NCBI GenBank assembly: GCA_023249475.1
Contig: JAHFCO010000001.1
Location: forward strand, 1-64,000
Length of the DNA: 64,000 nt
Direction: 5' to 3'
From: Bacillota bacterium
GTDB taxonomy: Bacteria; Bacillota_I; Bacilli_A; Erysipelotrichales; Erysipelotrichaceae
Shown here: piece by piece, positions 49,746 through 63,808 of the stretch
Numbering within the stretch: the stretch's first letter is position 1
Layout: each line of letters opens with the position of its first letter
Program-made: the position numbers and the translations under genes
Notes under the pieces: model-generated
Told to the model about the DNA's origin: nothing
The model's database searches: none
What the model saw: only the letters and a program-made list of their open reading frames with translations

Positions 49746-49989
49746 ACAAACAGGATGATCGGTGAGTTCACCACACTTATAATATAGAGTTTCATTCCGA
49801 AACAACAATAAAACTTAGTGCACAATCAATCCGATCATTCATAATTGCTTTCATAGCTTTTGATTTATCTATAAATGAAATCAATTTATTAGAGACCCTA
49901 GACTTTTACGTGAATTAGCACGAATTTATATGATTCAAAATACTATATAAACTTAGACATACTATTCGCATCAACTCATAGAAACCAGC
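49746..49989. other. AT-rich non-coding left border of the defence island
   Basis: Base composition changes sharply here from GC-balanced to strongly AT-rich. GGTGA-GT-TCACC (about 49760-49771) is a small hairpin that may end the MORN-like transcript. I see no tRNA, integrase or clear attachment repeat. Confidence 0.55.
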
Positions 49990-50877
49990 TTAATGTCCTT
50001 GTGAACTATTGCATTTGAAATAGTCATATAATTCAAAGATATTGGTATATTTGACATATTTAGCAGGTAATCGAAAACCAAGTAGTTTTTCATATTCTCG
50101 CGCTCTAGTTTCATTCCCTCCACCATCTTCGAATATTGTGAAAATCCATTGTGCATTATGGTGGTCTTCATTGATATATTCAAAGTACCTTCTGTCTATA
50201 TCATTGTATGAATGTCCACATACAATGATCTTGTCGAATTCTAAATCGCCAATTTTTCGTTTAGCTGCTGTGTAATTATCTTCAAAATTTTTCAGATACC
50301 TACCACTAATATTTCCACACAACTCAGATAACTCATCAATTCGATATGGGTTACCAAGTTCCTCTTCAGCAAGCTCATATAAGCTCATGAAGTAATCTCC
50401 CTCTGGATCACTAAAATCTATAGTTCTGTTATGACCAATTACGACTTCAGTGTCTAATGTGCCATGAATATGGATAACTTCTCCAACATATCCAACTTTA
50501 TTTGGAGTCTGTGTGTAGTTAAATGAAAGTATTACTCCACAAAAGTCACTAAGTAAGTACATGAATTTCTTTTCAATTTCAACTTCATCTTGAGCAAACT
50601 CGATAAACTCTTTCAAATAATCATCAAGATTATTGAGTTTTTCTTGATAGAGTAATGAGTAATCGGCAATATCGTTTGGTACAATGCATGAAAGTGCATT
50701 TTCAAAATTCATCCAGAGACTCTCGTTTTCTTGAGAATGTAAATTCACTAACCCCATTTCGTAAAAATATGAAGCAATTTCCTGGTGATTACTTTCCATC
50801 CAATCACCAAATGTAGAATAACTTGTTCTTAGACCACATCCTAAGTCAAATCCATTCCCAATTATTAATAAGTTCAT
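49990..50877 (-). CDS. abiH: AbiH-type phage abortive infection protein
   Basis: A 295-residue protein with the AbiH family opening NLLIIGNGFDLGCGLRTSYSTFGDWM and the conserved FSYTQTPNKVGYVGEVIHIHGTLDTEVVIGHN-like core (here SFNYTQT...HIHGTL...VIGHN). The C-terminal IIVCGHSYNDIDRRYFEYI is also typical. Members, first described in Lactococcus, block phage multiplication by an unknown route; the fold resembles SIR2/NAD-binding-like domains. It is the last gene of the island operon, 85 bases after the DUF4145 gene, so it could have its own promoter. Confidence 0.88.
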   Translation of the reverse strand: MNLLIIGNGFDLGCGLRTSYSTFGDWMESNHQEIASYFYEMGLVNLHSQENESLWMNFENALSCIVPNDIADYSLLYQEKLNNLDDYLKEFIEFAQDEVEIEKKFMYLLSDFCGVILSFNYTQTPNKVGYVGEVIHIHGTLDTEVVIGHNRTIDFSDPEGDYFMSLYELAEEELGNPYRIDELSELCGNISGRYLKNFEDNYTAAKRKIGDLEFDKIIVCGHSYNDIDRRYFEYINEDHHNAQWIFTIFEDGGGNETRAREYEKLLGFRLPAKYVKYTNIFELYDYFKCNSSQGH

Positions 50878-50962
50878 CTTTCAATCTCCGCATAATTTCT
50901 TTACATCCTCTAGTATAAGTTCTTTTAATATTCAATTCAAATCTAAGTCTAGTCAGTCCCCA

Positions 50963-51868
50963 CTATGCTGAACGCTTTTCCAATTCAGTAAGATTAGGCA
51001 CTTGAATAGGTTCAACATTCGATAGTACCTGTGATAATATAGATAATCTGTGTTGAGTGTCAATATTATTTGATTCAAGACTTTGTTTACTAACTATTTT
51101 TTTTGTATTCGCAATCCCGTTCTCTTGGATAAATTTCCTCCAACTGTTTGTCAATCCAATCATTCTGTAAAGTGTAATTATTGCATAAACAATGTTGCCA
51201 TCTGGTTTGTCGTTTTTGAAAACGATTTTCTCAATGGTCTTTAGATCATATTGGGTTCCAAAGAACAATGCAAAAACTGAGTTTATATCTTTAATGTCAA
51301 TGTCATCAAGTGATCCATTTTTATAGTTTACTAGAAACTCATTATCAACATAAAACTTAGGTAGTATTATCTCTGGTCTTAAATCTTCCACTTTTTCTGG
51401 GTTTTTCCTTGGAATCACATTTTTCTCAACGACAGTGGATTCTAGATATTCCTCAAAAGAACTGAAGACTACTTTTGATTTATTATTAAAATTTACATAC
51501 CATTGCAGTATTTCATAGATTTTTTTAAGACAAAATATGGATTCTATTTTATCAGCTTGTATAGCATTAGTTGAGTAACTAACATGTGCTGCACTAGAAT
51601 TCCGAATAGACCTAATTGAGTGCATATCATTAATTGTTCTATCAAGTATTACTCCTCTCAGACTATTGATTTTGGAGTTTAGTTCAGTACTTGAACTATA
51701 TAGTTTTTCGCTCTCAATTACTCTATTAACAACTATCTCAAGAATACTTGATGCTTTTATTATTGATGCTTGAGGATCACTAACACTATACTTTTCTGCA
51801 TCATCAATAAGCTTCGCAATATCAGAAAAACTATCCTTTGACTTCAAGTAGCTAAAAACGTTTTCCAT
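50963..51868 (-). CDS. DUF4145/HEPN-like protein
   Basis: A 301-residue protein. Residues about 30-120 form a helical HEPN/DUF4145-like domain: DPQASIIKASSILEIVVNRVIES and MHSIRSIRNSSAAHVSYS. The latter contains RNxxxxH, the form of the HEPN ribonuclease motif, although related GN-AAH versions in type I restriction subunits are structural only. The C-terminal half (from about 165) is unrecognised. AAGGAG precedes the ATG, and it starts 14 bases after the DUF262 gene. It is either a toxin-like RNase effector or an adaptor of the neighbouring nuclease. Confidence 0.7.
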   Translation of the reverse strand: MENVFSYLKSKDSFSDIAKLIDDAEKYSVSDPQASIIKASSILEIVVNRVIESEKLYSSSTELNSKINSLRGVILDRTINDMHSIRSIRNSSAAHVSYSTNAIQADKIESIFCLKKIYEILQWYVNFNNKSKVVFSSFEEYLESTVVEKNVIPRKNPEKVEDLRPEIILPKFYVDNEFLVNYKNGSLDDIDIKDINSVFALFFGTQYDLKTIEKIVFKNDKPDGNIVYAIITLYRMIGLTNSWRKFIQENGIANTKKIVSKQSLESNNIDTQHRLSILSQVLSNVEPIQVPNLTELEKRSA

Positions 51869-51882
51869 TTGATACTCCTTTC

Positions 51883-53889
51883 TTAAAACTTAGCTTTAGA
51901 AACATCAAGTGTCAGAACATCATTCTCAACTATTTGATTAGCTATTTTCCTCGATCTCTCAAGAATTTCTCTTGGGCCCCAGGTCACATAATCTGCAACA
52001 AGTTCTTGAACAAGAATTCCTTGAACATCCAGAGAGTTATAAAAGCCAATTGGATCAGATGTGTTGCTTTTCTCGATATTTGCATCTCTCTTAAGCGGAA
52101 TTATATTACCAATTCTTGTTAAGTATTCGTTCCTAAACTGCTTCTGTGAAGGCTTATCAATTCCATTCTCAGTAAAATAATCATCAATAATGAGTTTGAA
52201 ATCAGCATCAAAACTTTGCGGCAATATATGATCTTTGTTAAATGCACTTTTAGAAGGTTTCTTGTTAATTAGTGGATTATAGAAATCCGCATTCTTAGTC
52301 CGATCATTAATATAATCGTTTAGTTTACACTGGATATAATACGCAACTTGATCATTACTCAATAATTGTATTTTATCTTCAAGAAGTTCTTTAGACCAAA
52401 CAAATGACTTATCTGTTTGATTCATGGCCAATTTTAAATCAATACCTACAGTATCTGGCGTTTCAAAAAGCCGGTCTCTCTCAAAAAAAACTTTCCAAAT
52501 ATTTCGCTCAACTGTATCAAGTTTTCTCAAACCAAAAACACTAACATATAAAATCGCTGCATTTGTTGTAACAGCAACCATCTTTCTTAATTTCTTAATA
52601 TCACATGTTCTATAGAGAATAATCTCTCTTAAGAGTAAAGCTCTTATAATTTTATAAGGATATGCATATTTCAAATTTGATTGAATAATGTCGTCTTCAA
52701 TAAGTGTCGATCTTCCTGGTTCTATAATTAAATTGTAACACTCACGATGTGTATGCAACTCTGTAACTAGGTCCATAGTCTTCTCATATAGTCTTAAAAT
52801 TCTCTCTTTATCTACTTTGATCTCCTGTTCAGAGTCATACTCAGCATTATCTACTAACTTCCCTTCGAAGTGTTCTTGAATTTCAGTGAATAGTTTTTTG
52901 GGGACAATATACTTCCCAAGGTAGTTTCTTTGAATTATGTAATATCGAATATAGTCTTCAATATCATTATCGAGAGATTTCTGTAAATCAGACCACAAGT
53001 TTTGAATATTTGTGTAATCATTCTTGTATTTTGGATTACTATCAATCTTTGACATGTTATAGACATTTTTGAAGAAATAGTTCTTTATTTTGTCAACTTG
53101 ATCTAGTTGTCTACCTCTATCATTTATTGTTTCGAATAACTTAAATGTCTTTGTACTGTCACTTGAAACAATAAAACATCGAATAATTAAGAATCTAGAC
53201 ATAAGTGTGCTCAAAATCGATGCATAGTTGTTTAGCACTTCGCTCTTGTAGTTTTGAAGAGTACTTTCTTCATTATTCGGCTTGTCATCTACGATGCCGA
53301 ATTTCTCTCTAGCTTGACTGTCAATCGCTTTGAGTTTCTCGTCAAAGTACATAAAATTAGAATGTAATAGAACCGCTGACTTCAAGAAAATCTGATTCTT
53401 GTCAAAAGTCTCTTGAAAGACTGAAACCTTATGCGGAATTTCACAATAAGAATCTTGAATCTTCTTAAATGCATCCTTATCTGAAGATCCAAGAGTCAGC
53501 CTAGGTAAATCGTCTTTCTTCGTTAATTTCTCTAAATTTGTCTTCAAGAATTTAAATGAAGTTGTATCCGACTGATCAGCAAATATCCCAAGTTGTCTCT
53601 TCAAAGCTAACATCAAAAGAGTAACTGAAGTTAAACGTTGCTGACCGTCTGTTACTTCAAGATAGTCATTCTCATCATTGGTAATCATCTTAAAATACAT
53701 TGGTCCAATAAAATGCTGGTCTTTATTATCTCTACAAGCGATAATGTCATCCCATAACTCTTCAGCTTGAAGTCTCTCCCAAGAATATGGTCTTTGATAA
53801 GCAGGAATCTTTAGAAGATACTCTGAAAATAAGTCGTACAGAAAGATAGTCTTTGCCTCAATTACTTTACTTGTTGGCTTTTCGAACAT
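51883..53889 (-). CDS. DUF262/DUF1524 nuclease (GmrSD/SspE type)
   Basis: A 668-residue protein joining DUF262 and a C-terminal DUF1524 HNH-type nuclease. The N-terminus shows IPAYQRPYSWE (28-38) and EVTDGQQRLTS (78-88), the ParB-like nucleotide-binding marks. The nuclease has NKDHILPQSFD with D553-H554 and the later NIIPLKRDANIEKSN. GmrSD cuts glucosylated DNA, while SspE of the SspABCD system uses the same architecture and is activated by phosphorothioate DNA. Placed 14 bases after dndA, it is the likely restriction effector here. All key motifs appear intact. Confidence 0.85.
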   Translation of the reverse strand: MFEKPTSKVIEAKTIFLYDLFSEYLLKIPAYQRPYSWERLQAEELWDDIIACRDNKDQHFIGPMYFKMITNDENDYLEVTDGQQRLTSVTLLMLALKRQLGIFADQSDTTSFKFLKTNLEKLTKKDDLPRLTLGSSDKDAFKKIQDSYCEIPHKVSVFQETFDKNQIFLKSAVLLHSNFMYFDEKLKAIDSQAREKFGIVDDKPNNEESTLQNYKSEVLNNYASILSTLMSRFLIIRCFIVSSDSTKTFKLFETINDRGRQLDQVDKIKNYFFKNVYNMSKIDSNPKYKNDYTNIQNLWSDLQKSLDNDIEDYIRYYIIQRNYLGKYIVPKKLFTEIQEHFEGKLVDNAEYDSEQEIKVDKERILRLYEKTMDLVTELHTHRECYNLIIEPGRSTLIEDDIIQSNLKYAYPYKIIRALLLREIILYRTCDIKKLRKMVAVTTNAAILYVSVFGLRKLDTVERNIWKVFFERDRLFETPDTVGIDLKLAMNQTDKSFVWSKELLEDKIQLLSNDQVAYYIQCKLNDYINDRTKNADFYNPLINKKPSKSAFNKDHILPQSFDADFKLIIDDYFTENGIDKPSQKQFRNEYLTRIGNIIPLKRDANIEKSNTSDPIGFYNSLDVQGILVQELVADYVTWGPREILERSRKIANQIVENDVLTLDVSKAKF

Positions 53890-53903
53890 TTGATTTACCC
53901 CCT

Positions 53904-55007
53904 TTATTCGAAATCATCAAACTTGTTGTAATCATCATAAGGTGAAAGTGAAATTCTTATTATCTCTTTAATACTATCAAGTTCATACCCCATTGCAGAA
54001 TAAACATGTGAGGGTTTTGAATTACTACACGCAGAACCACTCGATGCACATATGCTGTCAGAAATCGACTTTAGGAGTACTTGATTATTGATTCCTTTGA
54101 ACCGGACACTTACTATACCTGGAACTTTTAGCACATGTTCATTCAAAATTTCGATATTTCCCCCATATGTTTTTCTTAGCTTCTCAATTAATTGTATTTC
54201 GAGAAGTTTAAGTATCTCAATATTCTTTGCTAGGTTGCCTTTACAAATCCTTGCGGCTGTACCTATCCCTGCTATTTGATGAGTGGGTAAAGTTCCACCT
54301 CTCAATTTATTCTCTTGATCTCCACCATGTATTAGTGGTTCAATTCTCATATCAAGTGGATTGAAGTGATTGATAATGACAGCTCCAACTCCCTTAGGAC
54401 CATAGAACTTGTGCGCAGAGAACGTAATAAAGTCGACTTTCGATAATACTGAAAGATCAATCAAAACTTTCCCAATTGCTTGTGTTGCATCAGTATGAAA
54501 AAGCACTTTCTTCCTTTCACATATCTCCGAAATTGTCTTTATATTATTCACTATTCCCGTTTCATTGTTTGCCCACATTATTGAAACTAATGCTGTATCT
54601 TCAGTGATCTCAGATTCAAGTGCATCTAGGTTAATTGCCCCATTTTTATCAACTTTAAGATAGGAAACCCTGATTCCTTTTCTTGATAGGTAATTACATG
54701 TTTCAAGTACTGAAGAATGTTCTACTTCAGTTGTAATTATATGTGTTTTACCTGTTCTCTCAAGCACACCTTTTAGAACCATGTTATTTCCTTCAGTTGC
54801 GCCTGAAGTAAATATCACACCACTCGGATTAACATTGACTAATGATGCTACTTCACTTCTTGCCTTTTCTACAATAGCCCTTGCTCTCACCGCTTGTTCA
54901 TAATATAAACTATTTGGATTTCCATAAATTTCAACCAAAACTCTATTCATCTCGTCAATAACTTCTTGATGGATTCTCGTTGTAGCTGCATTATCTAAGT
55001 AAATCAT
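53904..55007 (-). CDS. dndA: Cysteine desulfurase of the DNA phosphorothioation system (DndA)
   Basis: A PLP enzyme of the NifS/IscS family that supplies sulfur from cysteine. The 367-residue protein opens MIYLDNAATTRIHQEV. The PLP-binding Lys is K200 in FSAHKFYGPKG, and the sulfur-carrying Cys is C327 in SSGSACSNSKPSH. It starts 14 bases after dndE with AGGAGG upstream. Its location inside the dnd operon, rather than beside isc or suf genes, indicates dedicated use by DndC. Confidence 0.93.
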   Translation of the reverse strand: MIYLDNAATTRIHQEVIDEMNRVLVEIYGNPNSLYYEQAVRARAIVEKARSEVASLVNVNPSGVIFTSGATEGNNMVLKGVLERTGKTHIITTEVEHSSVLETCNYLSRKGIRVSYLKVDKNGAINLDALESEITEDTALVSIMWANNETGIVNNIKTISEICERKKVLFHTDATQAIGKVLIDLSVLSKVDFITFSAHKFYGPKGVGAVIINHFNPLDMRIEPLIHGGDQENKLRGGTLPTHQIAGIGTAARICKGNLAKNIEILKLLEIQLIEKLRKTYGGNIEILNEHVLKVPGIVSVRFKGINNQVLLKSISDSICASSGSACSNSKPSHVYSAMGYELDSIKEIIRISLSPYDDYNKFDDFE

Positions 55008-55021
55008 CTAGTGCTTACCTC

Positions 55022-55411
55022 CTAGACAGTTTGTTGAATTAACCATTCAATTACTTTCTGTGGATTTCTATGTAGAGAATACTGCTCATATAACTTTTCC
55101 ATTCCTCTAAGTAAATGAGCTTTAGTTAACTCTGGAAAGAATGAGTTTTTGCTAACATTGGTTCTTAGATTTTGCTTCACCATAAGATAGTATACCGATT
55201 CATCATCCCCAAAAACTGTGTGTTTATGATAATTCATTCCTGTGTTATCACGTAACTGATTCTGCCTAATATCTCTTGGATCACCACCCTCTTTAAGTGA
55301 TAATCCAATACATATTCTAATTACTGCTGCTTTAGTAGACAGTCTTAATCCATTCTGAATCTCTGTTATTTTTATTTCTAAATCCTGTGAAGTAATAAGT
55401 CTATCTGCCAC
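55022..55411 (-). CDS. dndE: DNA sulfur modification protein DndE
   Basis: A 129-residue DndE: small helical protein, with family-like segments LRLSTKAAVIRICIGLSL, GGDPRDIRQ and NYHKHTVFGDDESVYYLMVKQNL. DndE binds nicked double-stranded DNA and is needed for phosphorothioate insertion. It uses a GTG start, with GGGGGA about 9 bases upstream. It is four bases after dndD. Confidence 0.9.
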   Translation of the reverse strand: MADRLITSQDLEIKITEIQNGLRLSTKAAVIRICIGLSLKEGGDPRDIRQNQLRDNTGMNYHKHTVFGDDESVYYLMVKQNLRTNVSKNSFFPELTKAHLLRGMEKLYEQYSLHRNPQKVIEWLIQQTV

Positions 55412-55415
55412 TTAA

Positions 55416-57344
55416 TTATTCCCCCTCTCCGAAGTATCCATTATTCACCGTCGTTCGACCTCGATTGTCATATAGCAAAAGAATCTTTTTCGATATCTTA
55501 TCCTCTATCAATTGCTTTACATTTCCGACAATCTCACTATCTGTCGAGAGTATAATTGTCTGTTGTGAAATACTACTCATAATCTCATTGACAAAATTAT
55601 GCCGGTTCTCAAAATCTAGTCGAGCTAAAGGAGTATCGAAAATAAAAGGGGTATCTCTTTTCGAAACTTTTACGATGGCATAAATCAGTGATGATACAAG
55701 GAGTTGCTTCTCACCAGCAGATAAAATCTCTATCGGCATTGAAGAACTATTCTTATCAATTAGCGATATTTCGAAATTCCCGTTTATTTTGATACCAGTA
55801 ATATAGTCCTCTTTTTCGGTCATCGATACAAATTTATCCTTACATGCTAATGAAATTTCGTCTAGTTTCTTCTTAACAAATTCATCTTTAAATGTATTTA
55901 TGACCTTTTGAATTCGATGAGTCACTACAAAGCTGTTTGTTTCATTAGCTGACTGTTTTATAAACTTCTCCAAAAGCTCTATCTTAACTTTTGCATCCTC
56001 AATTTGTAAGCTTCTAGTTACTTGATCATTCTGTAGTTCCTGAATTCGAGAGTATAGTTGCCTTAATTCTTGTTCACTATCCAGAATGTCTTTTAGTAAT
56101 GCAGATAATTCGTGATTGCCTTCATTTTTTCGAATTATATTCTTATACTCCTTCGACTTGTTTAAATCAAATGAATATTCAGAGAATTTCCCAATCATAT
56201 AGTTGGTGTTAGCTTCGAATGACATTTTTTTATATAATTGACTAATAATTAATTCTTCCTCAAAATCCGCATCCAAAAAAACTTCAATGTTCTTCTTCCT
56301 TTGATCAACTAGATCATTCAGCTTTGATAGTGCTTCATTTGCCCCAAGGAAATCAGAAATCTCATTTAAGTATCTTTGATACTTAATCGGTTTTTCTAAC
56401 TCTATTTGATGAACAATATCAGTAATTAGTCTGCGATTCATGAAAAATGAAACTTCCTCTTCAAGAAAGTTCCGAATCTCACTTGTTGCCTCCTTTTGGG
56501 TAATCTCATAGCTTCTCAAAAAGTTTTGTATCTCGTCTTTTTGCTCTTGTGAAACCCCTCCGAACGCAGAAAATTTCTTAAGTTTTTCTCTATGCTTTGA
56601 CTGTTCTTCTTTTCTTCTTAGCTCGTATTGTTTCAGGATTTGGTTGTTTTTTAACAACTCTCTCCTCATTGATGTAACATTCCCTTCAAGTTCCAGAAGA
56701 TCGAGTTCTTCATTTGATAAAAGTTTTACTTTATCTGTATTAACTAAATAAGCTACTAAATCCTGATCAAGTTTCTCAAAATATGTCATACCGAAGTTTG
56801 TATAGAAGACTTCTCTTATGAATTCTGAGGTCTCATTGCTCTCAATTATTCTACCAATTTTCTCACCATCAAAAAGAGATAACTCAATTAGAGATGGAGG
56901 ATAAATCTCCTTAAGTTTCGAGAAAAGGTTCTCCCTTTCGAAATCACTTAGTTTTGCTCCATTTCTGTAAACCACAACCTCCTCGATAATTGTGTTATTT
57001 TCTCTCTTCTTTTTCCACACTCTGGATATCGTATATTCGTTCTGTGTAAATTCCTCATCAATTAAGAAAGAAATCGAAATCGAAAAATAGCTATTTGCTT
57101 TTGCTAACTCCTTATAGTTTAGTAGTTTTTGAAGACTGGCTTGATAGTTTGAGGTGTCTGACTTTAGGCCGATTGAAAAAGAACCAAACATACCAATCTT
57201 TATCGCTAACAGAAGCGAAGTTTTACCTGCGCCATTCTTCCCACCGACCAACACAATGTTCTTCCTATCTGTTACCTGGAAATTAAATTCATTGCTACCT
57301 ATATATGGCCCGATGTTATTCAGAGTGACTTTTAGGAACTGCAT
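55416..57344 (-). CDS. dndD: DNA sulfur modification ATPase DndD
   Basis: An SMC/RecN-like ATPase of about 642 residues that supplies energy or DNA opening for sulfur insertion. The ATP-binding N-terminus has LVGGKNGAGKTSLLLAIKIGMFG (Walker A at about 34-42), followed by coiled coil (about 190-450). The C-terminal lobe has the signature ILSAGEKQLLVSSLIYAI and Walker B FIFDTPLARLD. Unlike the other ATPase of this operon, no cysteine hook is visible at the coiled-coil apex. The ATG at 57344 has AAAGGTGG 8 bases upstream; an in-frame GTG at 57356 overlaps that site. Confidence 0.93.
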   Translation of the reverse strand: MQFLKVTLNNIGPYIGSNEFNFQVTDRKNIVLVGGKNGAGKTSLLLAIKIGMFGSFSIGLKSDTSNYQASLQKLLNYKELAKANSYFSISISFLIDEEFTQNEYTISRVWKKKRENNTIIEEVVVYRNGAKLSDFERENLFSKLKEIYPPSLIELSLFDGEKIGRIIESNETSEFIREVFYTNFGMTYFEKLDQDLVAYLVNTDKVKLLSNEELDLLELEGNVTSMRRELLKNNQILKQYELRRKEEQSKHREKLKKFSAFGGVSQEQKDEIQNFLRSYEITQKEATSEIRNFLEEEVSFFMNRRLITDIVHQIELEKPIKYQRYLNEISDFLGANEALSKLNDLVDQRKKNIEVFLDADFEEELIISQLYKKMSFEANTNYMIGKFSEYSFDLNKSKEYKNIIRKNEGNHELSALLKDILDSEQELRQLYSRIQELQNDQVTRSLQIEDAKVKIELLEKFIKQSANETNSFVVTHRIQKVINTFKDEFVKKKLDEISLACKDKFVSMTEKEDYITGIKINGNFEISLIDKNSSSMPIEILSAGEKQLLVSSLIYAIVKVSKRDTPFIFDTPLARLDFENRHNFVNEIMSSISQQTIILSTDSEIVGNVKQLIEDKISKKILLLYDNRGRTTVNNGYFGEGE

Positions 57345-57360
57345 TAACTCATCCACCTTT

Positions 57361-58932
57361 CTAAATATTCACTATATCCTGATTTAGTATTCTCTTGATT
57401 TCTTTTATCGCATCGTCTCTTCTTTGTAAACCTATATTATTCCTCTCTACATACAATAATTTCTTTATCAATTCTAGATCAACATTCTCTTCTACACAAA
57501 TTCTTTCTAGGAGCGCCTCATCATCTTCTCCCAAAAAACTCACTTCATCTTGATTTACACTTAGTGGTTTACCTAGTGCCTTCTCATAGATGTCAAAAAT
57601 TGTCTTGTTCCAAATCCCATTAGATAACCAGATTCTACCAATTTCCTTGATCTCATCAATTGATATTAGTTCATAATCTACACCAAACTCATCAAATATT
57701 TTCTTCTGTGTTTCAAGAAGTCTTTTAAGCATTTCTTTTCTAGCGTCGATTGTAAATGGTCCTAACCCCAACATTGAGTAGCCATCGAACTCACGCACAA
57801 TAATCTTTGGATCTTCATCCGATCCAAGATTTATATTGTTCTCAGAAAGATATTTTAGCGCTTCCGCTTTTGAATCAAAGAAGCGCCACATTTCTCCATT
57901 TGAATCATGACCATCCAGTTTTATTTCAAGTTTATTTCGTTTCCCTTTTTGAGCAATTACTATTCTATCTCCCTTGAACTCGAGATTCATAAAGTAAACT
58001 GACCCGTTTGTGCGGTATTTTGCGCGCATTTCACGATTATCTCTTATATCCGTAAGCCAATTGCGATAGTCTAGTAAAAGTTGCAGCCATTTAACACCGG
58101 AACTAATAAATCCAGATAATGCTTTGTCCTCGCTAACTACAGTACAAACCCAACAACCGAATCTACTATTCCCACAACTTCCAGCTGTTTCCTTAATGTT
58201 TTTATCAACAATAAGTGGGCACTCATTGCTATTTGAGTCTGAGTATAATTGATAGAGTGCAGAATTATCTGCCCCCCATAATGACTCTGTATTTAGTAGA
58301 GTATTCCACACATCATTAATGTCAAAATCAACAATTGGAGCATAAACAAAGGCGTTCATCAAAGTAGAGTGCCGCATCAAGAGACTATTTTCTACACTAT
58401 ATCCGTCTATTACACGATCTCTTGAACTACTCTCACCTTTTCTTACACCTAGCAACATTATAACTTCACCTTGTTGATCAACAATATCTTTGATAAATTG
58501 ATTTGTAGGTTCGATTTTCATGCGATCTGTACACCATCTAAAAGTTTGGTTCGGTGTTGGATAACCTTTCCCGATAATATTTACCCAAAATGTGTCTTTA
58601 GTTTTGGGGTGCACCAAATGAGTTGAAATAGGAATGTTAAGATTTCGACTCGCATCATGTATTCTTCTTAAATTGTCTTCTAATTGAAGCTTAATCAATG
58701 GGGTTTCGACTAAAGTATCTGAAGAAACTATATAAATCTTCTTTGTTCTTTGTTGAACTGGAAGTTCATTAATGGCATTCATCACTAGATGAACAACACA
58801 AGATGAATCTTTCCCTCCACTATAACCAATGATCCATGGTCTCGAATCATTCATGTATACTTTTTTTATGTTATCTATTGATAAAAGGCGTTTCGCTTCA
58901 GTAGATTGTATCAAACTAGTAATTTTTGCCAT
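57361..58932 (-). CDS. dndC: DNA sulfur modification protein DndC (PAPS-reductase-fold)
   Basis: An ATP-pyrophosphatase/iron-sulfur protein that activates the DNA backbone and inserts sulfur. The 523-residue protein has the PP-loop YSGGKDSSCVVH (37-48), the LGVRKGESSSRDR segment (162-174), and cysteines likely to bind a 4Fe-4S cluster: C134 (RWCTDR), then C253, C260 and C263 in SCGNSRFGCWVC. A C-terminal region of about 200 residues is helical. AGGAAGGTGG lies upstream of the ATG. First of the four canonical dnd genes (C-D-E-A). Confidence 0.95.
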   Translation of the reverse strand: MAKITSLIQSTEAKRLLSIDNIKKVYMNDSRPWIIGYSGGKDSSCVVHLVMNAINELPVQQRTKKIYIVSSDTLVETPLIKLQLEDNLRRIHDASRNLNIPISTHLVHPKTKDTFWVNIIGKGYPTPNQTFRWCTDRMKIEPTNQFIKDIVDQQGEVIMLLGVRKGESSSRDRVIDGYSVENSLLMRHSTLMNAFVYAPIVDFDINDVWNTLLNTESLWGADNSALYQLYSDSNSNECPLIVDKNIKETAGSCGNSRFGCWVCTVVSEDKALSGFISSGVKWLQLLLDYRNWLTDIRDNREMRAKYRTNGSVYFMNLEFKGDRIVIAQKGKRNKLEIKLDGHDSNGEMWRFFDSKAEALKYLSENNINLGSDEDPKIIVREFDGYSMLGLGPFTIDARKEMLKRLLETQKKIFDEFGVDYELISIDEIKEIGRIWLSNGIWNKTIFDIYEKALGKPLSVNQDEVSFLGEDDEALLERICVEENVDLELIKKLLYVERNNIGLQRRDDAIKEIKRILNQDIVNI

Positions 58933-58946
58933 ATTAAACCACCTTC

Positions 58947-59402
58947 CTAATGTTGTATATCGCTAAGTATATCACTTACTCTATCGAGAATTTCTAAATA
59001 TGAATGATTCAATAATTCTTCCTCGAGAAAAACACTTCCTTTTATTGCGAAATTCTCAAGTTGCGCTAATCTATATATTTTAGGATTATCAATAGTATTC
59101 TCTTCAAAAGCTAATTGTAGTAATTCTTCAAAATTATCTTTAGATTTTTCTATTAATACAATCATCGTTGAGATGAATTCTATTTTATCTTGTCTCGAGA
59201 TTAAAACATTTCGGGGTATATTTATCTCAATGCTACTATCATTGTTTCCTTCAATCGTCTTGGTGTTCTCCTTCAAAGTTCGTACTCCTAAAACACTTGA
59301 ATAAAGAAATGAATCGATATAATCAAATCCAAATCTATCCTTCAAATCTTTGAATACTCGGGCACATTCACCTCTTATAACTATATCATTAGTGAAAATC
59401 AT
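58947..59402 (-). CDS. Unknown 151-residue protein inside the dnd operon
   Basis: A soluble helical protein starting MIFTNDIVIRGECARVFKDLKDRFGFDYIDSFLYSSVLG. No motif is recognised. AGGAGG lies 6 bases before the ATG, and the start overlaps the upstream ATPase stop by 14 bases, so it is co-translated. It is not DndB: too short and with no DGQHR-type motif. Its place between the extra ATPase and dndC suggests a small partner of one of them; the many I/L-rich helices would suit a protein-protein adapter. Confidence 0.7.
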   Translation of the reverse strand: MIFTNDIVIRGECARVFKDLKDRFGFDYIDSFLYSSVLGVRTLKENTKTIEGNNDSSIEINIPRNVLISRQDKIEFISTMIVLIEKSKDNFEELLQLAFEENTIDNPKIYRLAQLENFAIKGSVFLEEELLNHSYLEILDRVSDILSDIQH

Positions 59403-61386
59403 GCGTAACCTCCTTTATTAACGTATCACCATCTTTTGAAATGTTGCTTTCATCAACATTGTGAAATAGTTTATATGCTTTGCCAACTCTACTAGATAAA
59501 CCATCCTCAACAGATCCTTTCCACTGGCTATCAGTAGTAAAAAGGACAATTTGTTCAGCAATTTCTGGAATAATTGAGTTTACTGTTCTTCTGTTTGTAT
59601 AGTCAAGATTTGCGTAAGGAGCATCCATGACTAAAGGATAACAATCCGTATTTATTAAGTCTAGTTCCTTTGCAATAGATAGAATTCCGCCAATATATGA
59701 GAAGCTTGTTACAACCTTATAACCTTCTCCCATAACCGTACCACCGAATGCATCTTTTACGGTAAAACGATAATTCTTGTCAATCGCAACCGTCCTTTTC
59801 GATTCGAGCATTGCATTCATCAATTCTTGAACTTTATCCTGCAATTTTTTTCTTACAGAAGTCTCAATCTCGTTGTACTTTGTCAAGATAAGTTCTCTTG
59901 ATCCTTTTATTGTAGTAATTACGTCTAGCGTATGTGCGTTTGTATTCTCAAGCGCAGATAACTCATACCTTCTTAACTTTGCATCTGCAAGTTTCTTTAG
60001 AATTGCCTTCTGCTTTATCGAGTCTTCGCCAATCTTAATTCTTAGTTCATTTGAAGTTCTCTTGCAATATGCTCTTCTATCTTCAAGTTTCGCTACATTG
60101 CTTATTGTTTCGCTAGAAATTTTGATCTTGGACATTACAGATTCTAGTTTTATCCTAGTTTCATCTACATCATCAACGCTTTTATAGTATGAATCGATCT
60201 TCTCTTCAATTCTTCCAGTGACCTCAGAATTTTGGAGTTCAATCTGTTCGAATTGATGTTGTGTTTTCCTCAATAGAGTACTTAAACTCTCAGGTGGTAA
60301 ATACTTCTTCAACTCAGTTAGTTTATTGTAGTGTTTATCAAATTCACAAAATTTCTCACCACAAATACATTGCCCACGCAACAAAATTTGATCGATGGCA
60401 TAACCACTTATACCCTCAATAGTAGCTTCATTCATACCTTCATTACTATTTATCATCGATCTAATCTCATTAAAATGCTTGGATAATCTCAAGTTTGGAG
60501 CATTCTTAATATAGTCGTCAAGAACATTTTTCTGTTGTTTTTGTAAACTATCTCTCAATTTTCTTTCTGAATCTTCAAGAAACACACGTGATGCATGCAA
60601 CTCATTTATTACTTCAGATTCAGCTAAAATTTTATCGATGTTCTTAATCTCTTTATCGAGTTTTAAACTTTCCTCTTCATAGTGTTTTGTTTGTTTCTCG
60701 TAGAAATTCAAATTACTCTCGTAACTTGCGATAAGATTTTGAGTGGTAATCATTTCAGCTGAATATCTACCTCTTAAGCTAAGTTTTGAAGCATATTGTC
60801 TTTCAAGACTCTCAAGATATGAAAGTAGTTTCTCATAGACATCAAGTCCGAAAATACCTTTTACTGCTATAGAAACATCTTTTTTCCCAGTCTCATTATT
60901 TTCGCCTAAGTGTTTCATTCTCTCTCCATCGAAGAAGAAATAAGTTGAAAGCTCGAAGGGAATTAATTTATCAATATCTTCATCTCTTCCATCTTTTGAA
61001 ACACCTAACTTATTTTTTACAAGTATCTTTGGTCTAGAGTCAAGCGCGGTTAGACACTTCGCCTTATCCCCTCGTTTCTGAAACTCTTTTGTCCGTCTTA
61101 TTGTAAACGTCTCGCCATCCTTTTCTATGACAACTTCAACATAAGTTCTTATAATTTCATTGTCTTTCAAACATCCAAATTCATCTAAGTTATATACTAC
61201 TTCGATGTTCTCAAGATCAGCCACATTATAAAGACACCACTTGAATGCCTGTAGTAAAGTTGTCTTTCCTAATCCATTGTCTCCAATAATAACTGTGACG
61301 TTCTTTTTCGCATCTTCAGAAATCTCAAGTGTTTGAGTACCGCGAAATTGTCTAAAATTACTTAGTGTGATTCTCTTGAATTTCAT
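59389..61386 (-). CDS. Second DndD-like SMC/Rad50-type ATPase with CxC hook
   Basis: A 665-residue ATPase beginning MKFKRITLSNFRQFRGTQTLEI. Walker A GDNGLGKTTL is at 35-44. A long coiled coil spans about 170-530, interrupted at the apex by RGQCICGEKF with C340 and C342, a Rad50-like zinc hook in reduced form. The C-terminal lobe has TSFSYIGGILSIAKELD in place of a standard signature, then Walker B YPLVMDAPYANLD. DndD-like proteins carry similar N-termini, so homology to DndD is likely, yet a clear dndD is present two genes later. Its start overlaps the 55-residue gene by 29 bases. Confidence 0.85.
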   Translation of the reverse strand: MKFKRITLSNFRQFRGTQTLEISEDAKKNVTVIIGDNGLGKTTLLQAFKWCLYNVADLENIEVVYNLDEFGCLKDNEIIRTYVEVVIEKDGETFTIRRTKEFQKRGDKAKCLTALDSRPKILVKNKLGVSKDGRDEDIDKLIPFELSTYFFFDGERMKHLGENNETGKKDVSIAVKGIFGLDVYEKLLSYLESLERQYASKLSLRGRYSAEMITTQNLIASYESNLNFYEKQTKHYEEESLKLDKEIKNIDKILAESEVINELHASRVFLEDSERKLRDSLQKQQKNVLDDYIKNAPNLRLSKHFNEIRSMINSNEGMNEATIEGISGYAIDQILLRGQCICGEKFCEFDKHYNKLTELKKYLPPESLSTLLRKTQHQFEQIELQNSEVTGRIEEKIDSYYKSVDDVDETRIKLESVMSKIKISSETISNVAKLEDRRAYCKRTSNELRIKIGEDSIKQKAILKKLADAKLRRYELSALENTNAHTLDVITTIKGSRELILTKYNEIETSVRKKLQDKVQELMNAMLESKRTVAIDKNYRFTVKDAFGGTVMGEGYKVVTSFSYIGGILSIAKELDLINTDCYPLVMDAPYANLDYTNRRTVNSIIPEIAEQIVLFTTDSQWKGSVEDGLSSRVGKAYKLFHNVDESNISKDGDTLIKEVTHDFH

Positions 61387-61525
61387 CTTTTTTTAGTTCC
61401 CCCAGGATTATATCTTCAATAGTATCAATGCTTACTTTTGCTTTCTTTAAAATTGTTTTTGGGTTGTCTTTTGCAAACCTCTCTATTTTATGAACAATAA
61501 ATTTAATAAGTGTTTCGTCAACCAT
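61358..61525 (-). CDS. Small 55-residue protein between helicase and ATPase genes
   Basis: A short basic/acidic helical peptide opening MVDETLIKFIVHKIERFAKDN and ending EIQENHTK. A strong GGAGGG lies 4-5 bases before the ATG at 61525, which decides this start over an in-frame one at 61555. It overlaps the helicase end by 8 bases and the ATPase start by 29, as expected for a coupled gene. No family recognised. Such size and location recall small accessory subunits. Confidence 0.65.
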   Translation of the reverse strand: MVDETLIKFIVHKIERFAKDNPKTILKKAKVSIDTIEDIILGELKKDEIQENHTK

Positions 61526-62900
61526 TTTTCCCTCCATTTTTGTTTGTGACTCCAAACTCGGTAAACATGCCGTCTATAAAATCATCACACTCTTTATGAT
61601 TTAGTGCCAACTCAGCAAAGTCCTTTACTCTCCTTGCCTCTTTCGTAATAATGCTGTTTACGATATTTTCTAGGTCGTAATGTTTTGATATTCTAGGTGG
61701 TACAACAACAAAATCTACGATAGTTGAAAACTCTTTACCCTCAAATTTTCTTAATACTCTTCCCCGTCTTTGAATATATTCTTTGGGATTTGTTGAACTT
61801 GAAATAATAATGGCTGTCTGAACACTTGGAATATCTACACCTTCATCAAGGCACTTGATTGCCACAAGTGCTTGAAGCATCTTATCATTTTCAAACCGAT
61901 CAAGTATTCTTGATCTTTCCTCTATTGATTCTTCATAGGTGTATTTCCCGATACTCATTCCAAATTCGGATCCAAGAATTTTACATACATTTTCGATTTG
62001 ACTTTTGGAATCCTCAAATGTAGAATCAGTGGCCCCACAGTAAACTAGAATGTTTTTTTCATTTTGGTATTTTGATATTACTTCACGTAACTTATCAAGC
62101 TTATTAAATGCTGCATAAATTATCTTTGCTCTCTTCTGCAACAAAATTTCCTTATATGCGATTTGACTATCATTTAGATTTTTTGAACCTATTTTTGCAA
62201 TCTTTTCGGAGTAATCTCTATACTCAAAAAACTCCTCGTTTGTCATATAGACCTTCGCAGGATAATAATAATATGGAGTTAGGAAACCTCCTTCAATTGC
62301 TTGACGAAGATCAAAAGTAAAGACTTCACCTTGAAAATATCTCAATATGAAACTTGTTCCAGAATCATCAAAGTATCTATTTGGAGTTGCAGTTAGCCCT
62401 AGCCTAAATTTAAATCGTTGATCGAGGTACTTGGACAAACTTTCAGCCCCGGCGTAATGAGCCTCATCAACAATAATAAAAATATCCTTTTTACATCGAT
62501 TTATAATGTCTTGAGTATCGTCAAGTACAAATGAACTATTTGACATAACAAATACGGGGCTGTTGTCTACATTCCTATTCAGTTGACTAACTTTATTTGA
62601 AACTTTACCTTTCCATCCTGGATATTTTGAATAACATTGAATAGGTGCAAAAGAAAATTTCTCAAATTCCTTTACCCATTGATCAACTAAATTCACATAT
62701 GGACATAATACTATTGTGAGAAATGAATTATTCGATTCTTTTAATTTGAGAATAGACAAAATCGCTGTAAGTGTTTTACCTGTTCCAGTAGCCATTGAGA
62801 AAATACCACAGTGGTTATTTTCACACCACTTATTTATTGCATCAATTTGATATCCTCTCGGCACAAACCAATCAGGAATTTTCGGTTCTGTTTTCTCCAT
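61518..62900 (-). CDS. SF2 DEAD/DEAH-type helicase
   Basis: A 460-residue superfamily 2 helicase of the ResIII/DEAD type. Motifs in order: Q-like RGYQIDAINKW, Walker A MATGTGKTLTA, Ib/II with IIVDEAHYAG, III LGLTATPNRYFDD, and the second RecA lobe with ILVYCGATD, CLDEGVDIPSVQTAIIIS and motif VI YIQRRGRVLRK. No nuclease or extra domain is attached. First gene of the island operon; ATG at 62900 with a G-rich ribosome site. It may load or translocate for the CxC ATPase, or take the place of DndFGH-type restriction proteins. Confidence 0.88.
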   Translation of the reverse strand: MEKTEPKIPDWFVPRGYQIDAINKWCENNHCGIFSMATGTGKTLTAILSILKLKESNNSFLTIVLCPYVNLVDQWVKEFEKFSFAPIQCYSKYPGWKGKVSNKVSQLNRNVDNSPVFVMSNSSFVLDDTQDIINRCKKDIFIIVDEAHYAGAESLSKYLDQRFKFRLGLTATPNRYFDDSGTSFILRYFQGEVFTFDLRQAIEGGFLTPYYYYPAKVYMTNEEFFEYRDYSEKIAKIGSKNLNDSQIAYKEILLQKRAKIIYAAFNKLDKLREVISKYQNEKNILVYCGATDSTFEDSKSQIENVCKILGSEFGMSIGKYTYEESIEERSRILDRFENDKMLQALVAIKCLDEGVDIPSVQTAIIISSSTNPKEYIQRRGRVLRKFEGKEFSTIVDFVVVPPRISKHYDLENIVNSIITKEARRVKDFAELALNHKECDDFIDGMFTEFGVTNKNGGKNG

Positions 62901-62981
62901 CGTCCCCCCCATTAAACATGTACTTATATACGTATATATTACATTGATTGTATATAGATTTGTAGACTATCTTTTAAGTAG

Positions 62982-63006
62982 TATTATGCTGTACAATAAA
63001 TTGTAC
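62982..63006 (+). promoter_or_regulatory. Promoter -10 and operator-like palindrome of the divergent gene
   Basis: TATTAT (62982-62987) is preceded at 16 bases by TTGTAG (62960-62965). It is followed by the perfect palindrome GTACAAT-AA-ATTGTAC (62991-63006) in the predicted start-site region. A candidate control site for the divergent gene and possibly for the whole island operon. Confidence 0.5.
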
Positions 63007-63051
63007 GATTTTAGTTGTGAAGAAAGAACAATTACGTAAAGGGGGACGAGT

Positions 63052-63459
63052 ATGAGTAGGTGGGTGTTCACCAGAGATGAGGCTATATTGCTCATGTGTT
63101 TATATTTCGAATTTGATTTCCTAAACTTTGACGATAAAGATAGCGAACATCTAAATTTGAGAGTATCGAATTACAGCTCAATATTTAGAATTATGAACAC
63201 TCATAATGTAAACTTGGATTTACATCCAAATTATAGAAATTTCAATGGTATATTTCTTCAAATACAATCAATTCGGCATTATCACTTAACTATTGAGGGC
63301 TATGAACCTCATGGAATCAAAAATAGCTCTCAACAATTCAAGAACCTCCTTTTTGATGCATTGAATGGAAAAATCTCTTTACCAAATGAAAAATCAAGAA
63401 TACTCGAAAAGCTTGTTCTTGATAAATATTCAGAGTCACTGTCAGATATTGAGTTTTAG
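63052..63459 (+). CDS. Unknown 135-residue protein, resembles N-terminal domain of HNH endonucleases
   Basis: The start MSRWVFTRDEAILLMCLYFEFDF and the later HPNYRNFNGIFLQIQSIRHYH recall the N-terminal recognition domain found ahead of HNH nucleases, with its typical W-x-R-E-E-x-L-A-L-x-L-Y and FRN-NGV segments. No HNH motif follows; the frame stops cleanly at 63459. It could be a stand-alone modification reader, an island regulator (it is divergent and has a palindrome at its promoter), or a truncated nuclease. GGGGGACGAGT precedes the ATG. The family link is a pattern judgement only. Confidence 0.5.
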   Translation: MSRWVFTRDEAILLMCLYFEFDFLNFDDKDSEHLNLRVSNYSSIFRIMNTHNVNLDLHPNYRNFNGIFLQIQSIRHYHLTIEGYEPHGIKNSSQQFKNLLFDALNGKISLPNEKSRILEKLVLDKYSESLSDIEF

Positions 63460-63639
63460 TATTGGTTATACTTCTTTCTAGATCTATGATTTAGGTACGA
63501 ATCATATGAATGTCAGGTGAGTTATGAAGTAATCACCTCAATTGATCACACCACTCCTGACAATGAATACAATTAACTTGCTCATCATCTATTTCGTTTA
63601 TAACTGGTTTACGATTAACTTCGTACGATGGGTTATAGA
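63460..63639. other. Non-coding right border of the island
   Basis: About 180 bases with no convincing gene. AGGTGAGTTA-TGAAG-TAATCACCT (63516-63540 region, one extra base) is an imperfect hairpin, and GTCAGG/CCTGAC frame 63513-63560. These may be remains of recombination or transcript ends. Confidence 0.4.
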
Positions 63640-63787
63640 TATGGAATCCTCAGTCATCATCGTGACGGAGATGGACAATGAGAAAAGCATAAACGATCCC
63701 CTGTTATGGGATGACATGTGTTATGTTTCATATTCAAGAGCGAAGAATCACCTTGTGATTCTTCCTCCGGACAATGTAAAATTATAG
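63640..63787 (+). pseudogene. Remnant of a UvrD/Rep-type helicase C-terminus
   Basis: The frame encodes DMESSVIIVTEMDNEKSINDPLLWDDMCYVSYSRAKNHLVIL. This fits the end of superfamily I helicases: a KGLES-VVI-like strand followed by LLYVA-SRARNHLVVL. The rest of a helicase is absent, and the preceding in-frame codons do not extend the similarity. It is probably the tail of a gene destroyed when the island was inserted or reshuffled. It ends just before the chromosomal GNAT gene. Confidence 0.6.
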
Positions 63788-63808
63788 AGAATGAAAGGTG
63801 GGATTTGT

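Follow-up and report, generated by a model that had tools for sequence, protein, structure and literature searches.

What is the role of the four overlapping genes that precede dndC, a phosphorothioate (PT) modification gene, in a Bacillota bacterium of the family Erysipelotrichaceae? They lie within the first 64,000 nucleotides of contig JAHFCO010000001.1 (assembly GCA_023249475.1; a 2.09-Mb genome in 60 contigs), the stretch of DNA that was analysed and that we call the window. We are almost certain that the four genes are PbeABCD, also described as the CxC ABC-ATPase–DndE system, an antiviral cassette known from bacteria and archaea and published in 2019 and 2024. What sets this copy apart is that its PbeA helicase carries no HKD nuclease domain. 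The window system is filed as an HKD-less variant of PbeABCD and not as a canonical member.

The four open reading frames (ORFs) upstream of dndC occupy the minus strand and overlap, in gene order, by 8, 29 and 14 bases, an arrangement given in the preliminary description of this DNA, made from the sequence alone, and borne out by the ORF coordinates. dndC begins 14 bases past the end of the fourth ORF, which encodes 151 amino acids (aa). The four genes and the modification genes that follow them are:

61518..62912, minus strand: pbeA, a 464-aa superfamily 2 (SF2) helicase/translocase without the N-terminal HKD/PLD nuclease domain
61358..61525, minus strand: pbeB, 55 aa, predicted helical; position, size and overlap as in relatives
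59389..61386, minus strand: pbeC, a 665-aa CxC-hook ABC ATPase with a PADLOC PbeC match
58947..59402, minus strand: pbeD, a 151-aa DndE-like protein, from comparison of its AlphaFold model with the PDB
57361..58932, minus strand: dndC, the PP-loop sulfurtransferase component (TIGR03183, 514.5 bits; SGGKDSS and CWVC motifs)
55416..57356, minus strand: dndD, a canonical ABC ATPase without CxC (TIGR03185, 347.9 bits)
55022..55411, minus strand: dndE (Pfam DndE, 37.3 bits, above the cut-off)
53904..55007, minus strand: dndA, a cysteine desulfurase (TIGR03235 is the best match at 393 bits, under its 480 cut-off; SSGSAC motif)

Identity of the four-gene module

In PADLOC profile searches, the helicase matches PbeA at 508 bits, with the match running only from profile position 241 onward, and the upstream ATPase matches PbeC at 390 bits across its full length but DndD at only 129. 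The helicase also scores 489.7 bits against NCBIfam TIGR04095 (PT-linked helicase), below a 600-bit cut-off that no genome of the family reaches. The suggestion that the module replaces Pbe proteins is therefore overturned, since the module is PbeABCD itself. A search of the genome with TIGR03237 (DndH) gave no match, and neither did control genomes.

PbeC contains a Walker A motif (GDNGLGKT), an N-terminus that matches Rad50 ATPase structures, and a CxC hook at its apex (C340-I-C342). The neighbouring DndD has no CxC, so the Rad50-like apex is confined to the upstream ATPase, as the preliminary description had it. Against the DndD model TIGR03185 (curated cut-off 245.85 bits), the neighbour scores as a true DndD and PbeC reaches just 98.5 bits; the view of PbeC as a DndD-like but distinct protein that coexists with a true DndD holds on these scores and on the phylogeny described below.

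PbeB occupies the expected position and aligns with the PbeB-position ORFs of other relatives, including the locus L069 (see below); its model is helical with moderate confidence (predicted local distance difference test score, pLDDT, 76). PbeB is described as a mostly disordered, rapidly evolving small protein in Rakesh 2024 (PMC10853773). PbeD has no sequence match in profile searches, and a link to DndE from sequence alone was not significant; structure comparison was used instead. With its AlphaFold model (pLDDT 82.6), DndE structures make up 15 of the 16 top PDB matches, with probability up to 0.98, weak E-values (0.15 at best) and template-modelling scores of about 0.4–0.6. On this model, PbeD is a DndE-like partner, in agreement with the same paper, which names PbeD as the DndE cognate and PbeC as the CxC-type ATPase.

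When GTDB genomes were scanned using an alignment of PbeA, at least 80 loci emerged, a sample, and the counts given here and below refer to the loci listed from it. In 69 of the 75 loci that could be read, pbeC comes after pbeA on one strand, and a small ORF sits at the pbeA–pbeC junction in 66 of these 69. By profile, 20 of the 69 have dnd modification genes in their examined flanks and 21 have Ssp-type genes; the other 28 have neither. The conserved order, together with the 28 loci lacking both sets, indicates that the module is fixed and not tied to dndCDEA. This confirms the proposal of a fixed set of four genes, shows that the module does occur without dndCDEA, and rejects the contrary idea that the four are scattered, unrelated neighbours. 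L069 (an uncultured Clostridia bacterium, CANQPY010000029.1) has the order pbeABCD-dndCDEA on a contig that ends just past dndA, and its small ORF overlaps pbeC by 29 bases, as in the window.

Further observations concern the wider family. In many Bacillota and a Methanobrevibacter, pbeABCD lies downstream of Ssp-type modification genes, not dndCDEA (loci include L013, L015, L054, L055, L071, L073, L077, L092, L098 and L141). The set preceding it comprises a BrxP/SspD-like PAPS-reductase protein, SspB, SspC and a cysteine desulfurase, and we found no description of this pairing in the passages of the Pbe literature consulted. In viral collections, two human-gut ‘phage’ records (L216, L217) encode Ssp-type genes with an HKD-bearing PbeABCD. 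PbeA-like helicases with in-frame TGA codons (G345:C3:5934-7154 and G533:C1:97969-99183) probably belong to small genomes with a code in which TGA stands for tryptophan.

PbeA and its HKD domain

Normally, the N-terminal part of PbeA is an HKD/PLD nuclease domain some 200–250 residues long; in all 17 HKD domains extracted from relatives, an HxK motif is followed by an acidic residue. The window PbeA is 464 aa long versus about 690–760 in most relatives, and alignment with HKD-bearing relatives places its start about 20 residues ahead of the conserved YQ of the helicase. The ATG at 62900, preceded by GGGGGG, is just as good a start; it would give 460 aa and coincides with the end coordinate in the preliminary description. 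The helicase motifs (Walker A, DEAH, TAT and QRRGR) are intact. Neither tblastn nor an unfiltered six-frame hidden Markov model search found an HKD remnant upstream of pbeA, and no separate or frameshifted upstream ORF at the locus encodes the domain. Judged by its sequence, the window PbeA has lost its HKD domain. The preliminary description overlooked this, and its overall interpretation is upheld only in part.

Other PLD proteins are encoded elsewhere in the genome, in 524-aa and 942-aa frames on other contigs and a 712-aa frame (C29:37320-38147). In another genome of the sample, G290 (L054:8079-10219), PbeA is divided into two overlapping ORFs of 206 aa and 536 aa, probably through a frameshift that separates the HKD part from the helicase.

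The window is not alone in this respect. The HKD domain is absent from 17 of 77 sampled relatives, which is not a population frequency. The short PbeA sequences of G124:C167 and G064:C31 were rejected as HKD-less, as their contigs end there. On a tree built from the helicase domains of 84 PbeA proteins, five changes are needed to explain the HKD-less state, and well-supported branches force four of them; the HKD-less sequences in this tree are those of the window, an Exiguobacterium (L072), Lacticaseibacillus sharpeae (L113) and 15 cyanobacteria. HKD-less PbeA thus appears to have arisen independently several times, in at least four changes.

The HKD-less cyanobacterial proteins keep their DExH and QRRGR motifs. 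Five pairs give dN/dS values of 0.06–0.10 by the simple NG86 method, with some dS near saturation, and by this measure the cyanobacterial HKD-less PbeA is under purifying selection. Five of the cyanobacterial HKD-less loci have no pbeC nearby. In L081 (Nostocales), the helicase lies downstream of an ornithine carbamoyltransferase gene and lexA, and ORFs sized like this upstream pair precede the helicase in several other cyanobacterial loci (L084, L089, L094, L109 and others). The cyanobacterial helicase may have been domesticated. In the L. sharpeae PbeA, the standard DExH motif was not found; a 717-aa gene (L113:77-2230), whose one match, to sigma-70 region 4, is weak, overlaps this pbeA by 4 bases. 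No substitute nuclease recurs consistently beside the other HKD-less loci, where we found a Uma2 protein in L081 and an Exo_endo_phos protein in L105.

A proposed motor without a nuclease, and the alternatives

We consider it likely that pbeABCD is the antiviral half of a DndCDEA-PbeABCD PT system in which PbeA lacks the HKD domain and is proposed to act as a non-cutting motor. DndCDEA would place sulfur in the host DNA backbone as PT. The PbeC/PbeD pair, a CxC ATPase with a DndE-like DNA binder, would then scan DNA, and on unmarked DNA the complex, together with PbeB, would engage PbeA, an ATP-driven helicase/translocase that would keep the invader from replicating but would not itself cut invader DNA. 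The scheme builds on family identity, gene order, ATPase motifs and HKD absence as found at the locus, and takes PT dependence and the replication block from the literature. In Haloterrigena jeotgali, PbeABCD halts viral replication with no cleavage or degradation of viral DNA, its activity requires PT modification itself, and some protection remains when pbeA is missing (Xiong 2019, PMC6459918). For the specific step in which the window PbeA works as a non-cutting motor, we regard the evidence as evenly balanced.

Several points weigh against this reading. Most PbeA relatives retain the HKD domain, including the nearest, L069 and G638, and cleavage has been argued from its presence in the vast majority of systems (Rakesh 2024, PMC10853773). 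Moreover, the window pbeA allele has no close relatives for a selection test, and a nuclease gene lies in the same operon. The minus-strand gene run continues, with short gaps, from pbeABCD through dndC, dndD, dndE and dndA into two further genes, up to an AbiH gene:

51883..53889, minus strand: DUF262-HNH (GmrSD-like) gene, with GmrSD_N and GmrSD_C and the motifs DGQQR and DHILP
50963..51868, minus strand: DUF4145 gene, with a weak match (22.4 bits vs a cut-off of 23.1)

The first of these could supply a nuclease in trans: the DUF262-HNH protein would sense PT and nick unmodified DNA that the Pbe motor has marked or exposed. We hold this to be possible but rather unlikely. The gene directly follows dndA in the same gene run and its DUF262 and HNH motifs are both intact. 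It resembles SspE and DndI, both PT-responsive nickases, in its N-terminal DUF262 with DGQQR, its C-terminal HNH and its place in a PT locus; by this analogy, its product is possibly a PT-sensing nickase. There is little sequence similarity, however: the SspE model gives 33.5 bits at best, there is no PDB match, and the best PADLOC match is HEC-06 at 141 bits. DndI and SspE function with modification genes alone, so the DUF262-HNH protein may be a separate effector. Nor is a DUF262 protein with DGQQR enriched beside HKD-less PbeA (1 of 17 HKD-less loci, 6 of 60 HKD-bearing ones), and we rejected it as a regular HKD substitute. No close DUF262-HNH homologue was found in 395 genomes of the class, and no relatives were found in viral contigs.

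Alternatively, PbeA might be a decayed, non-functional fragment, leaving the remaining operon to work without it or not at all. Its long end branch (0.94 vs a median of 0.41 in the PbeA tree) would fit decay, as would the finding in H. jeotgali that pbeA is the least essential of the four pbe genes (Xiong 2019, PMC6459918). We think decay improbable: a plausible start codon leads into an uninterrupted frame, every helicase motif is intact, the gene overlaps are preserved, and the cyanobacterial HKD-less forms are under purifying selection.

It is less probable still that the four genes make up an unrelated defence system, no more than a neighbour of the dnd genes, that makes no use of PT marks. 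The 28 pbe loci in whose examined flanks both dnd and Ssp genes are missing speak for independence, whereas the tight one-strand linkage, the 14 bases to dndC and the PT requirement in H. jeotgali speak against it here. So does a tree of 41 ATPases, in which the window PbeC is sister to the PbeC of L069 (support 95) and the window DndD to the DndD of L069 (support 100), both from one locus with the identical gene order. Because both ATPases pair with those of L069, the dnd and pbe genes of the window operon were apparently inherited together in this lineage. The earlier idea of an independent system captured by dnd genes fits the family in general but seems not to fit this lineage. As for the upstream ATPase being a recent duplicate of dndD, its N-terminal similarity to DndD is outweighed by a single well-supported branch (95) that separates the PbeC and DndD sequences into two clades, each window ATPase joining its L069 counterpart, and we dismiss this origin almost entirely.

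The missing HKD domain bears on a conflict between published views: replication halted without cleavage (Xiong 2019) versus cleavage based on the HKD domain (Rakesh 2024). Naturally occurring HKD-less forms favour the former without proving it. A bolder conjecture, which we think somewhat less likely than not, is that Pbe without a nuclease has evolved repeatedly as a working form, its DNA motor complex being gated by PT marks and halting invader replication with no cutting at all. If so, the HKD domain would be an add-on effector outside the core of the system, and certain cyanobacteria would have retained only the motor, for a different task. A natural nuclease-less PbeA, with several independent origins and, in one group or more, purifying selection, offers a ready-made test of the cleavage dispute; the window provides such a PbeA in a compact operon whose modification genes are all intact, with L069, which has the HKD domain, as its matched control.

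Genomic setting and comparison with known systems

The operon lies in a region set off by its base composition, with boundaries taken from a sibling species:

49777..63802, no strand: low-GC (guanine-cytosine) defence island

GC content is 33% across the 14-kb island, about 53% on its left side and 51% on its right. No perfect repeats of at least 10 bases were found between the two island boundaries. The sibling species (G168) contains both island-flanking genes at 83–89% identity, and at the same site (L226:5356-12478) has another low-GC cassette with different contents: an HNH protein, Vsr, a C5 methylase, a MutH-type nuclease, a DUF262 protein and a HEPN-like protein. The same flanks around another defence set mark the site as a defence hotspot and the window set as an acquired cassette. 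Two plus-strand ORFs lie upstream of pbeA: a divergent 135-aa ORF at 63052-63459 without a Pfam match, and an 81-aa ORF at 63542-63787 with a helicase-like ‘VSYSRAKNHLVIL’ stretch, perhaps the remaining end of a gene since lost.

The closest published counterpart of the whole arrangement is DndCDEA-PbeABCD of H. jeotgali A29 (Xiong 2019, PMC6459918), which shares the pbe gene order, the adjoining dndCDEA and the lack of dndB. The small proteins are near-identical in size (66 and 152 aa in H. jeotgali A29, 55 and 151 aa in the window). The two differ in that the H. jeotgali PbeA has an N-terminal PLD/HKD domain that the window PbeA lacks, and in that pbe precedes dnd in one gene run in the window but follows it in H. 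jeotgali A29. With the CxC ABC-ATPase–DndE systems, the window shares a CxC-hook ATPase with a DndE-like protein, a small protein and an SF2 helicase; the vast majority of those systems have the HKD domain, and HKD-less forms are not discussed in the passages of their description that were consulted (Rakesh 2024, PMC10853773). Finally, L069 has the identical pbeABCD-dndCDEA order and a PbeA with 48% identity to that of the window, and of the two only the L069 PbeA has the HKD domain.

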